Of a stretch of DNA of 57,259 nucleotides, positions 442 to 11,755 are shown one piece after another. Made by a program: the position numbers and the translations under genes. The stretch comes from Deltaproteobacteria bacterium (GTDB taxonomy: Bacteria > Myxococcota_A > Polyangia > JAAYKL01): contig JAFGQN010000071.1 in the NCBI GenBank assembly GCA_016935665.1, positions 1-57,259 of the forward strand. The letters are read 5' to 3'. Every line of letters starts with the position of its first letter. The first letter of the stretch is position 1. The notes under the pieces are model-generated. The model searched no databases. It was not told the origin of the DNA and saw nothing but the letters and a program-made list of their open reading frames with translations.

Positions 442-630
442 CGAGAACGTGACTTGGAGCAGCGCCTGCTTCAATCTCAAAAGCTCGAATCCATTGGGCA
501 GCTGGCCGCCGGCATTGCTCACGAAATCAATACCCCGACACAATATGTCAGCGACGATGAATTTCCCTTTTTTAACCTTTTCCAACGCATCTTAGATGAC
601 GTATATTCACCCTACGAAAACTCGCAATGA
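442..630 (+). pseudogene. Histidine-kinase H-box fragment
   Basis: Codons 442-555 encode [20 protein letters not shown] followed by [18 protein letters not shown]. This is a textbook dimerisation/phosphoacceptor segment of PAS-type sensor histidine kinases, with the phospho-accepting His at 520-522. Upstream the similarity stops at the Cys-rich fragment. Downstream it breaks off after QYVSD and the frame ends at 630 with unrelated residues. No ATPase domain follows. It is therefore an internal gene fragment of roughly 38 codons, not an expressed kinase. Its junctions with the minus-strand fragment at 441 and with yebC suggest past deletion or recombination. Confidence 0.65.
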
Positions 631-641
631 AAGAGGAGACA

Positions 642-1352
642 ATGGGTAGAGCATTTGAATTTCGCAAGAATGCGAAACTGAAACGATGGGGAAAGATGTC
701 CCGCGTTTTCCCTAAACTCGGTAAGGCCATCACTATCGCAGCAAAACAGGGCGGTGGCGATCCGGATATGAACGCAAAACTGCGCACCGCAATTGCCAAC
801 GCAAAAGCGGAGAACATGCCCAAAGACAATATTGACCGTGCCATTAAAAAGGCGCTCGGCAAAGACGCCGTCAATTTCACCGAAATTATTTACGAAGGCA
901 AAGGTCCTCACGGCGTCCAGGTCGTGGTCGAGTGCGCCACTGATAACAACACGAGAACCGTGGCGAATGTGAAATCCTATTTCAACAAAACCGGCGGTCA
1001 GATTCTCACCAGCGGTTCACTGGATTTTATGTTTGACAAAAAATCGGTGTTCATTTTCCCCGCTCCCAAAGGCAGGAATCTCGAAGAGCTCGAACTCGAT
1101 CTGATTGACGCGGGTCTTGAGGAGCTCGAAGAGCAAGACGGAGAAATTACCGTTCTGGGCGGATGGGACGATTTCGGCGCTCTGGACGCGGCACTTCACG
1201 GCATGGGTATCGAAGTTACCAGGGCGGTACGCCAGCGCTTTGCCAACCAGCCGCAGGAGTTTTCAGAGGAGCAGATGGTGGACATCGAAAAACTCCTCGA
1301 CAAACTCGACGAGGACGAAGACGTGCAGGAAGTGTTTACCAATATCGCGTAA
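642..1352 (+). CDS. YebC/PmpR family regulatory protein
   Basis: The 236-residue product begins MGRAFEFRKNAKLKRWGKM, the hallmark N-terminus of the YebC/TACO1 family, and keeps the GGGDPDMNAKLR and NMPKDNIDRAI segments. An in-frame ATG lies at 627, but the ATG at 642 matches the family start and has GAAAGAGGAG just upstream. The family is annotated as DNA-binding regulators (PmpR, YebC); newer work ties members to translation at difficult peptide motifs, so the job here is open. The acidic C-terminus (DEDEDV) is typical. An intrinsic terminator follows at 1452-1478 and the next gene is convergent, so it is probably monocistronic. Confidence 0.93.
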   Translation: MGRAFEFRKNAKLKRWGKMSRVFPKLGKAITIAAKQGGGDPDMNAKLRTAIANAKAENMPKDNIDRAIKKALGKDAVNFTEIIYEGKGPHGVQVVVECATDNNTRTVANVKSYFNKTGGQILTSGSLDFMFDKKSVFIFPAPKGRNLEELELDLIDAGLEELEEQDGEITVLGGWDDFGALDAALHGMGIEVTRAVRQRFANQPQEFSEEQMVDIEKLLDKLDEDEDVQEVFTNIA

Positions 1353-1561: not shown

Positions 1562-1948
1562 CTACCGCCCACGCCGTTTTTCTTTTTTTCGTTCCTGCTT
1601 TTGGTTGTATTTTTCCTGCTTGCTTAAGTCTCTTTGCTGTTTTCGTTGCTTCTTTTTTTGCTGGAGGCACGCTTCCTGTGCGGCGCTGTAGGCCTGTTGT
1701 GAGCGGGTAATATTTTTGTTTGCGTCGGTGTGTTTCCACTTTTTTTTGAGTGGCACGTCGGCGTTGGTGGTTTGGCGAAATGCCAGTCTGGGATAAATGT
1801 TGATGTAGTAGTGCTGAATGTCATTCCAGGTGGGGTCGGGGCCGAACGTGTGTTTGGCTAAGAGATGGGTGCCGTCAACCATGTTTTTTTCAGCCATTGC
1901 AATCCAGTACTGTCCATCAAAGAAAATTGTTGTGATGCCGCTTTCCAT
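1562..1948 (-). CDS. yjdF: YjdF family protein (DUF2992)
   Basis: The 128-residue product opens MESGITTIFFDGQYWIAMAE, continues LLAKHTFGPDPTWNDIQHYY and ends in a long Lys/Arg/Gln-rich tail; that combination marks DUF2992/YjdF. The family is best known from Firmicutes, where many members sit behind the yjdF-motif riboswitch that responds to aza-aromatic compounds. Their biochemical role is unknown; a part in dealing with toxic heteroaromatics has been proposed. Here the ATG (1946-1948) has a strong GGAGG five bases upstream, and that ribosome-binding site abuts a 14-base palindrome. The leader is described in its own entry. The protein is probably cytoplasmic, and the basic tail could bind nucleic acid. 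Confidence 0.85.
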   Translation of the reverse strand: MESGITTIFFDGQYWIAMAEKNMVDGTHLLAKHTFGPDPTWNDIQHYYINIYPRLAFRQTTNADVPLKKKWKHTDANKNITRSQQAYSAAQEACLQQKKKQRKQQRDLSKQEKYNQKQERKKEKRRGR

Positions 1949-1949
1949 T

Positions 1950-2073
1950 TTTTACCTCCGGATAAATTTATCCATGAGGCAAAATGGACATCTCACCGAT
2001 GAAACCGGGGCGATGGATACGGGACTTAAAAAAGTCGCCCTGACTACCTACAGGGCTGTGTTTTTATTTGCCT
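1950..2073 (-). promoter_or_regulatory. Multi-stem 5' leader of yjdF, candidate riboswitch
   Basis: Read on the minus strand, AGGCAAAT (2066-2073) pairs with ATTTTGCCT (1977-1985) and encloses three hairpins: GCCCTG/CAGGGC with an 8-base loop (2037-2056), GACTT/AAGTC (2023-2036), and CATC/GATG with an inner CCG/CGG (1989-2015). Between this junction and the start codon lies the perfect palindrome GGATAAATTTATCC (1960-1973), directly next to the GGAGG Shine-Dalgarno. This architecture fits a ligand-sensing leader controlling translation. The gene's family is the one known to be controlled by yjdF RNA. I cannot recall the consensus well enough to assign the class, so the identity is inference. 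Confidence 0.5.
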
Positions 2074-9615: not shown

Positions 9616-11472
9616 TCAATCCGAAGATGCGGGTCCACCATCATTAATGGTCCAGTGGTGCACGCTGATGAGATGGGTGCGGGCGGCCTCGGCGGCGGCG
9701 TACGTGGCATTTCCTGCGTCAAAGACAACGTTGTCCTGCACGTCCTGGGCGGCAAATCCAGTGAGGATGCCGTCGTATACATCCGTATCCAGGGTGATGC
9801 CGGCAAAAATGTACTGGAGCGATGCGATATTGGAAATATCCAAATCACCAATATTCTGGTTGAACGATGTGGCCGATGCCAGAAGGGTTAAAAGACGGGT
9901 GGCGGATTCCAGTTGCCAGTTGCCGATGTCCTGGTTGAAGGACTGGGCACCTGAAAACATGGCGTTCAGCTGCTGCACATTGCGCATATCCCAGTTGCCA
10001 ATGTATTGGTTGAACGCGCTGGCGCCGGAGAACATGGTGGTCATATCGGTCACTTTTGATGTGGTCCAGCCGCCGATGTCCTGGTTGAAACGGATGGCGC
10101 CTGCAAACATACCGATCATGGATACCACATTGGCGGTATCCCAGCTGCCAATGTCCTGGTTGAAGGATTTGGCGCCGCCAAACATGGATATCATGGTGGT
10201 CACACCGCTGGTGACCCATTTGGAAAGGTCCTGGTTAAACGATGTGGCGCCGGCAAACATGGACTGCATGTTGTTAACACTGGACGTATCCCAGCTGCCA
10301 ATGGGTGAGTTGAATGCGGTCGCATTGGAGAACATGCTTTGCATGGTGGTCACATTGGATGTATTCCATTTGTCCAGGGATTCATCGAATTCGGTGGCGC
10401 CCGCAAACAGGGCGCTCATATCGGTAATTGTGGCGGTATCCCAGGCGTTTAGAGAATCCGGGGATGCCAGCTGCGCACAGTTGTAGAAACATCCATGCAG
10501 ACTGGTGGTTTGCGACAGGTTGGGCGTATCTTCCGCTGAAATCCAAAGGTCGCTGCAACCGGCAAACTGTCCCCACGTATCTCCCAGCGAGAGCGGCCCC
10601 CAGGTTTGAATTTCCAGCAGCTTTTGCGCATCGCCGAAATGGGCAGCCTGATTCACCGCCAAAGGCCCTGAAGGTTCCGGTACAGCAAACTGCCACCCTT
10701 CGATGATACCCTTAATCTGCAATGTGACCACGCCGGGGGCGTCATACGTGTGCGTGGCCGCCATGTCTGTGGCAGCAGTGATCACATCGGTGGCGCCATC
10801 TCCCCAGTCCACAGTAAAATCATATGTTCCGTTGTCGACCAGCGGCAATGAGATGCTGCCAATGCCAAAAATGCCCTCGATACTGTTGTCCCATAGAGAA
10901 ATGAACGTTTCGGTGTGAACAACGCCATCTGTATCTGTATCTTCTTCTGTGTCACTCCCTGTTTCAGAATCGGGTAGAGTGTCCGAATCGGGTAGAGTGT
11001 CAGAATCGGGTAGAGTGTCCGAATCTTCTACACTGTCCGAGTCCGGTACAGATTCAGAGTCAAATAAAGTGTCTGTGCTCAGTTGTGTGTCGCTATCCGG
11101 TACGGTTTTGCTGTCCAATACAGAATCGCTGTCTGTATTGTCACCAAAGATTTCTCCGGTACCTGTATCTTCCTGTGCAGGTGGATTTGTATCCGCACTG
11201 GTTGCCGAATCCGTCACAGAATCACTTTCTGTTTCGGGTGGGATGACTTCACTTTCACTGGAGGTGACGGAGTCTGTTTGCGTGTCTGACAATGAGTCGG
11301 TATCGCTGGAATTTACAATGGATATCAGTGTTGTATCCACTACGGCAGACCAGACGTCGTCATTTGGCTTTTTGGCGTCGGACGATTTTTTACACCCTGT
11401 CGTTCCTGCTGACGCGATGGCAAAAATGAAAAAATAGAAACACGTGCGAAAAGTTGTGTTCGTAAAGGGCAT
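9616..11472 (-). CDS. BspA-like (DUF285) surface lipoprotein
   Basis: The 618-residue protein starts at the ATG 11470-11472, which has GGAAGGA upstream, and has a lipoprotein signal ending TTGC. Residues ~40-190 are a Ser/Asp/Thr linker, partly made of exact TLPDSD repeats. A PKD-like stretch ([11 protein letters not shown]) follows. The rest is a run of ~24-residue DUF285 repeats ([21 protein letters not shown]), about nine copies. DUF285 repeats resemble BspA leucine-rich surface proteins of Mycoplasma, Bacteroides and treponemes and are thought to mediate binding; in this group they are probably cell-surface or matrix proteins. A lipid anchor, flexible stalk and binding head is the natural reading. 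The open frame extends upstream to 11541, but without a good ribosome-binding site. Confidence 0.87.
10966..11025 (-). repeat. 18-bp tandem repeat encoding TLPDSD
   Basis: Three near-identical copies of agaatcgggtagagtgtc lie in tandem (10966-10983, 10984-11001, 11002-11019), differing only at the first base, with a partial fourth. They encode LPDSDT units in the stalk of the DUF285 lipoprotein. Such exact repeats can expand or contract, so the stalk length may vary between strains. Confidence 0.8.
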
Positions 11473-11755
11473 CCCATTTCCTTCCAGTATGTTGGGCAGC
11501 CGATTTTCAGCAAATGGCGGCTGCAGATAACCACAAAACACTCTGATTAATGTATTGAGGGCAGCTTAAATGATTCTGGAATTTTGATCTCTAAAAATGC
11601 CGCATTTCTATATGGCGAATGCGAAGTATAGGGAGCCGCGAATGGCGTCCACTGCTTTGCCGTCAGATGGAAATCAATCTGAGCATCGAAACCGCTCTGT
11701 CAAAAGTACCTGACGGCGCCGTTGAAAAGGCCAACTTTCTGTTTTATTGATTGGG

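Follow-up and report, generated by a model that had tools for sequence, protein, structure and literature searches.

The window, the whole 57,259-nucleotide stretch of DNA analysed here, carries a structured leader in front of a yjdF gene, and its host belongs neither to the Firmicutes nor to the spirochaetes. The locus raises the question of whether this leader is a yjdF riboswitch and, if so, by which rearrangement it would control its gene. To our knowledge, the yjdF class is an orphan with respect to both its natural ligand and the function of YjdF. Our preferred model, to which we assign a probability of nearly four in five, is that the leader is an RF01764 switch that would control yjdF translation by exchange of one strand of its P1 helix.

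The leader is a true member of the yjdF (azaaromatic) riboswitch class, found outside Firmicutes and spirochaetes. It lies on the minus strand, as do all of its parts described below. As computed with cmscan (Rfam 15), RF01764 matches positions 1968–2077 with 64.7 bits, well above the gathering score of 45 (E = 1.4e-10 over the window), and the model is covered from end to end (1–101 of 101). This match is the single Rfam match in the entire window and the only RF01764 copy in the 8.16 Mb genome. The original prediction, which had proposed a search with the yjdF model, had left two options, a distant representative of RF01764 and a novel class of leader associated with this gene family; the former is what the locus contains, and the latter falls away. 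The regulated gene, yjdF (1562–1948, minus strand), begins 19 nt beyond the end of the RF01764 model. It encodes a 128-residue protein of the anticipated DUF2992 family (PF11208, 69.8 bits; cut-off 23.8), of which this genome has one copy only.

The predicted closing stem, AGGCAAAT with ATTTTGCCT, corresponds to P1, which the model alignment composes of a 5′ strand at 2066–2073 and a 3′ strand, AUUUUGCCU, at 1977–1985. Within it lie the three hairpins that had been described: P2 (2037–2056), P3 (2023–2036; GACUU-UUUU-AAGUC), and P4 (1989–2015), which is without the CCUCC anti-Shine-Dalgarno (anti-SD) element of the Firmicute P4. By alignment and by comparison with the crystal structure (PMC10987639), the T-loop-like loop of P2, UAGGUAGU, belongs to the ligand pocket. 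The elements within the proposed leader span, 1950–2073, are real, but the span is too short, and the functional unit runs from about 2077 to the end of the start codon at 1946.

Covariation in homologous leaders, which the original prediction had also proposed to look for, is strong. Helices P1–P4 have compensatory changes in 17 of 19 pairs, with 94.3% of cells paired and 153 cells changed on both sides, and the covariation score of 0.753 (0.239 in shuffles) is reached by none of 500 shuffles. The signal falls sharply when the pairing partners are offset by one to three columns. P1 itself covaries in all seven pairs. In the crystal structure, the ligand is bound between A-U and U-A-U platforms of L2, J1/2, and J3/4, below which L2 GG forms G-C pairs with J4/1 CC (PMC10987639). 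These pocket nucleotides are invariant or nearly so in a 28-sequence alignment (A3) that includes the window, and the columns J1/2 CAC, L2 GG.AGUC, J3/4 GUA, and J4/1 GUCC are invariant. J1/2 AACAC, the L2 loop, and J4/1 CC are all found in the window, the exception being J3/4, which is CCGUAUCC (CCGUA) rather than the family consensus CAGUAACC (AAGUA), such that one A of the pocket wall is altered. Three relatives, L221, L222, and L225, share this departure in part. Since yjdF RNAs had already been listed in Actinobacteria, Fusobacteria, Spirochaetes, and Synergistetes (PMC4793209), a non-Firmicute host is less surprising on its own.

The expression platform in the window

In the yjdF switches described to date, 9–11 nt of P4/L4 pair with the ribosome-binding site (RBS) in the OFF state (PMC4793209, PMC9142559). 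A CCUCC anti-SD was sought in P4 of the window and is absent, and the longest complementarity between P4 and the SD, 5 nt, falls short of the described pairing and of the 9 nt available to the P1 strand. The SD, read from the sequence as GGAGG (1955–1959), is located six bases ahead of the ATG at 1948 and is directly abutted by the predicted 14-nt palindrome, GGATAAATTTATCC (1960–1973). Folding of the full leader with RNAfold gives a helix, CCAUUUUGCCUC:GAGGUAAAAAAUGG, in which the 5′ arm (1976–1987) comprises J4/1 and the P1 3′ strand, and the 3′ arm (1945–1958) covers the SD, the spacer, and the start codon. This predicted OFF helix contains nine contiguous pairs, UUUUGCCUC:GAGGUAAAA, and is closed by the palindrome, GGAUAAAUUUAUCC, as its apical hairpin. 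The original prediction had noticed the palindrome and missed this role in a helix that sequesters the SD and AUG by means of the P1 strand. On its own, the palindrome is unremarkable because the window contains five perfect 14-nt palindromes, about the number expected by chance. P1 and the OFF helix, both predicted folds, share one strand and are mutually exclusive; the P1 3′ strand is the proposed switching strand, which would pair with its P1 5′ partner in the ON state and with the SD and spacer in the OFF state.

Taken whole, the leader exceeds chance expectation by a wide margin, as its RF01764 E-value and its folding scores indicate. Around the SD hairpin, folding has z = −4.8 (1 of 200 shuffles equally good), and the core of the OFF hairpin, from GUCC to AUG, has a minimum free energy of −20.6 kcal/mol and z of −6.1. 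The same series gives about −8 for L221 and L222, −5.5 for L224, −4.2 for L131, −4.1 for L223, and values mostly near 0 for Firmicute leaders; in L225–L229, a high GC content weakens the z-scores. When P1 is forced in the computed ensemble, exposure of the SD rises from 0.09 to 0.66 and that of the AUG from 0.07 to 0.53, at a computed cost of 12.7 kcal/mol for the ON state, with tertiary contacts lying outside the energy model.

In the mechanism that we propose, J4/1 and the P1 3′ strand would leave the aptamer when ligand is absent and pair with the SD, the spacer, and the start codon, forming a helix that is looped by the palindromic hairpin and would keep ribosomes off. We infer that a planar ligand of the azaaromatic type would be held between L2 and the junctions J1/2, J3/4, and J4/1. 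Binding would lock P1 and J4/1 in the aptamer and free the SD and AUG, such that YjdF could be made, as expected of a translational ON switch. Because the OFF helix is favoured by approximately 12.7 kcal/mol, which is above the likely contribution of a micromolar ligand, an equilibrium switch is unlikely, and the decision between ON and OFF is probably kinetic, made during transcription of the leader.

The far greater stability of the OFF hairpin over the ON fold at equilibrium would also be consistent with a constitutive translation brake or an RNA thermometer, next to which the aptamer would be independent or vestigial. We consider this explanation unlikely: the 5′ arm of the hairpin is exactly the P1 3′ strand plus J4/1 and is incompatible with the aptamer, and neither the retention of the pocket residues nor the covariation of every P1 pair is expected of a vestigial aptamer.

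Two types of leader among relatives

Eighty loci are recovered by a DUF2992-alignment scan of genomes; whole-genome searches add further Spirochaetota loci, and RF01764 is present in most of the leaders scanned. In type A leaders, observed in Firmicutes and a few treponemes, a CCCUCC in P4 faces AGGAGGG. In type B leaders, it is the P1 3′ strand that faces the SD, and a small hairpin separates them. Type B comprises the window, L131 from Brucepastera, L184, L191 (which has no clear start codon), and L220–L229; L216 is doubtful, being ambiguous in that its P4 matches the SD too. The layout of the window is repeated in 13–14 Spirochaetota leaders.

The arms of the type B helix covary between species: UUUGCCUC:GAGGUAAA in the window and L221, UUUGCCCCC:GGGGGUAAA in L223, UUUACC:GGUAAA in L220, CUUUACUCC:GGAGUAAGG in L225, GCCUCC:GGAGGC in L224, and CGUUCCCC:GGGGAACG in L227. 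Because the MAFFT alignment of the OFF hairpin is out of register (39.6% of cells paired at slide 0 and 74.7% at +2), the OFF pairing was assessed by a permutation test, in which, over 10,000 permutations, the pairing of P1 strands to the SD region of the same leader is compared with their pairing to SD regions from other species. For the type B leaders and the window, the cognate mean is −15.24 kcal/mol and the permuted mean is −12.31 kcal/mol, with 0 of 10,000 permutations as low. The count is still 0 of 10,000 when four GC-rich leaders are removed and when the set is thinned to ten. Control regions of type B are weaker (1713 and 329 of 10,000), and pairing of the type B P4 with the SD is equalled in 1102 of 10,000 permutations. 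The 38 type A leaders give the reverse result, 0 of 10,000 for P4 with the SD and 2574 of 10,000 for P1 with the SD. These counts are not strict probabilities, since type B was first picked by eye and its members share ancestry. This double dissociation, in which P1 pairs with the SD in type B and P4 does so in type A, is a result of sequence comparison and constitutes the main support for a putative second platform.

It also bears on whether the window contains an ordinary yjdF riboswitch that uses a P4:RBS platform and has an incidental SD-AUG hairpin. The aptamer and the downstream gene are identical in kind to those of the Firmicute relatives, which clearly use P4, but the P4 of the window offers the SD only its 5-nt match, and in spirochaete-type leaders the pairing that covaries is that of the P1 strand with the SD, not that of P4. 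A P4:RBS platform is therefore quite unlikely here, and P1-strand exchange is the reading that we retain.

Four Treponema DUF2992 genes without RF01764 share a different leader, with the pattern UACAUCUUUCGAGAG..stem..UCUUACUUUCC...GGAAGAUGUAUG; its loci are L137, L163, L185, L203, and L236–L250. R1, a model built on the 61-nt domain at its 5′ end, has matches in 15 of 274 family genomes, with one copy apiece, and in 14 of these 15 matches the leader precedes a DUF2992 reading frame. The stem has changes on both sides in 7 of 14 pairs, with 96.7% of cells paired, and the first 9–12 nt can pair with the SD-AUG region in 14 of 14 leaders. No Rfam family matches this leader in the loci scanned, and R1 matches neither the window nor the type B leaders tried. 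This conserved leader is unrelated to RF01764 and is a candidate for a new class of regulatory RNA for yjdF.

The yjdF gene and its host

In a tree of 61 YjdF proteins, the protein of the window falls inside a set of 14 rows with a support of 99, composed of ten type B members and the four Treponema members without RF01764. The closest protein, that of L222, is 40% identical to it, and a single change is needed to separate type A from type B on the tree. The host is no spirochaete: by RpoB it is separated, at full support, from both Spirochaetota and Bacillota, and a TonB-dependent receptor is encoded on the contig, in keeping with the predicted non-Firmicute origin. The phylum samples used for the host search and for the Spirochaetota search share no genome. 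RF01764 occurs in 1 of 317 genomes of the host class, which is this genome, and DUF2992 in 2 of 377 genomes of the host phylum. The other DUF2992 locus in the phylum sample, L003 (G269:C5), has a leader and a protein of the Firmicute type and may be a binning contaminant. Because the YjdF of the window resides in a spirochaete clade while its host lies elsewhere, horizontal transfer is suggested. The simplest reading is that yjdF was gained from a donor of the spirochaete type, and the gene and its leader probably came together from that lineage.

The closeness of YjdF and its leader to Spirochaetota, and the lack of RF01764 in the 316 further genomes searched within the class, might instead reflect a spirochaete contaminant contig in the assembly of a host that has no such riboswitch. 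This explanation is very unlikely in view of yebC (627–1352, plus strand), a convergent neighbour 210 bp from yjdF. Two genomes of the same genus, which is non-Spirochaetota by RpoB, have copies with 95% and 92% identity to this yebC, evidence that the contig belongs to the genus. In one same-genus genome, a gene that is GGDEF-domain-like by sequence stands downstream of yebC in place of yjdF. This yebC is a second copy in the genus, with 62% identity to that of Aureibacter tunicatorum (Bacteroidota) and at most 47% in its own class outside the genus, and may itself have been acquired. Least probable of all is transcription termination at P2 and the following GACUUUUUUA, which resembles an intrinsic terminator and is listed by a pattern scan: the stem is aptamer helix P2, the U run forms the loop of P3 and is missing from the close relatives L221 and L222, the four terminator-like sites found compare with 1.7 expected by chance, and the SD hairpin has no U run after it, so this reading was dropped.

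A sequence search finds no solved structure for DUF2992. The AlphaFold2 model of YjdF has a mean pLDDT of 87.4 and shows a small β-β-β-α domain plus a helix that is long and basic; fold searches of the PDB give no convincing match. Prophage DUF2992 genes with an RF01764 leader are observed in Streptococcus phages Javan105 (L125), where the gene adjoins a tape-measure gene, and Javan311 (L129), where it is at the end of the record. A scan of viral-contig proteins gives no match, and a viral pattern scan with two aptamer motifs gives loose matches only. On the Apilactobacillus kunkeei plasmid OX335174.1 (L130), a DUF2992-like gene directly follows a putative polyketide cyclase in a cluster with the locus tag PPKS, a hint that aromatic polyketide chemistry is a possible natural context. 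Elsewhere in the window, the gene at 9616–11541 encodes a 641-residue protein that includes three stretches of DUF285 repeats and contains tandem-repeat DNA at 10066–10263 and 10967–11051.

Comparison with known yjdF riboswitches

The published yjdF mechanism is built on P4:RBS pairing in Firmicutes (PMC4793209, PMC9142559). A P1-strand-exchange platform for yjdF was not found in the main texts of the open papers examined, and its priority is uncertain. A second platform in another clade would identify the aptamer rather than P4 as the conserved sensing unit and bears on proposals that P4/L4 is a tRNA-like element or the sole anti-SD. P1-exchange leaders, such as those of L221 and the window, are compact, have a clear predicted two-state structure, and are suited to probing and to ligand re-screening. 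The spread of gene and switch over phyla supports the idea of a portable chemical-stress module.

As in the RF01764 class at large (Weinberg 2010, PMC2864571; Li 2016, PMC4793209), the leader of the window has the P1–P4 aptamer, the pocket nucleotides, and a position 5′ of yjdF/DUF2992, and by analogy the translational ON logic would be expected to be alike. The main differences are that the class sequesters with P4 whereas the window would do so with the P1 3′ strand, J4/1, and an inserted apical hairpin, that the helix of the window includes the start codon, and the nature of the host. Similar to the Staphylococcus aureus and Bacillus subtilis platforms (PMC4793209, PMC9142559), the ligand-free SD would be masked by a segment of the aptamer; in those species the segment is 9–11 nt of P4/L4, compared with at most 5 nt of complementarity in the P4 of the window. 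The L2 loop, J1/2 AACAC, and the pairing of J4/1 CC with the T-loop GG seen in the Ruminococcus gauvreauii crystal structure (PMC10987639) are also found in the window, which differs in its J3/4 and has neither the P4 anti-RBS UUCCUCCUUA nor a P2a hairpin. The closest likeness is to the Spirochaetota leaders L131, L184, L191, and L220–L229, which have the same aptamer, P1-strand:SD helix, and apical hairpin; the sequences of the helix and of the apical hairpin covary, and the host phylum is different. Most of these leaders belong to YjdF proteins of the clade that contains the window, and L225–L229 belong to a second protein group. It is likely that two non-homologous platforms split with the YjdF tree, the described P4 anti-SD in Firmicutes and, in Spirochaetota, a P1 exchange with an apical hairpin and masking of the start codon, and that the latter moved with its gene into the unrelated phylum of the window.
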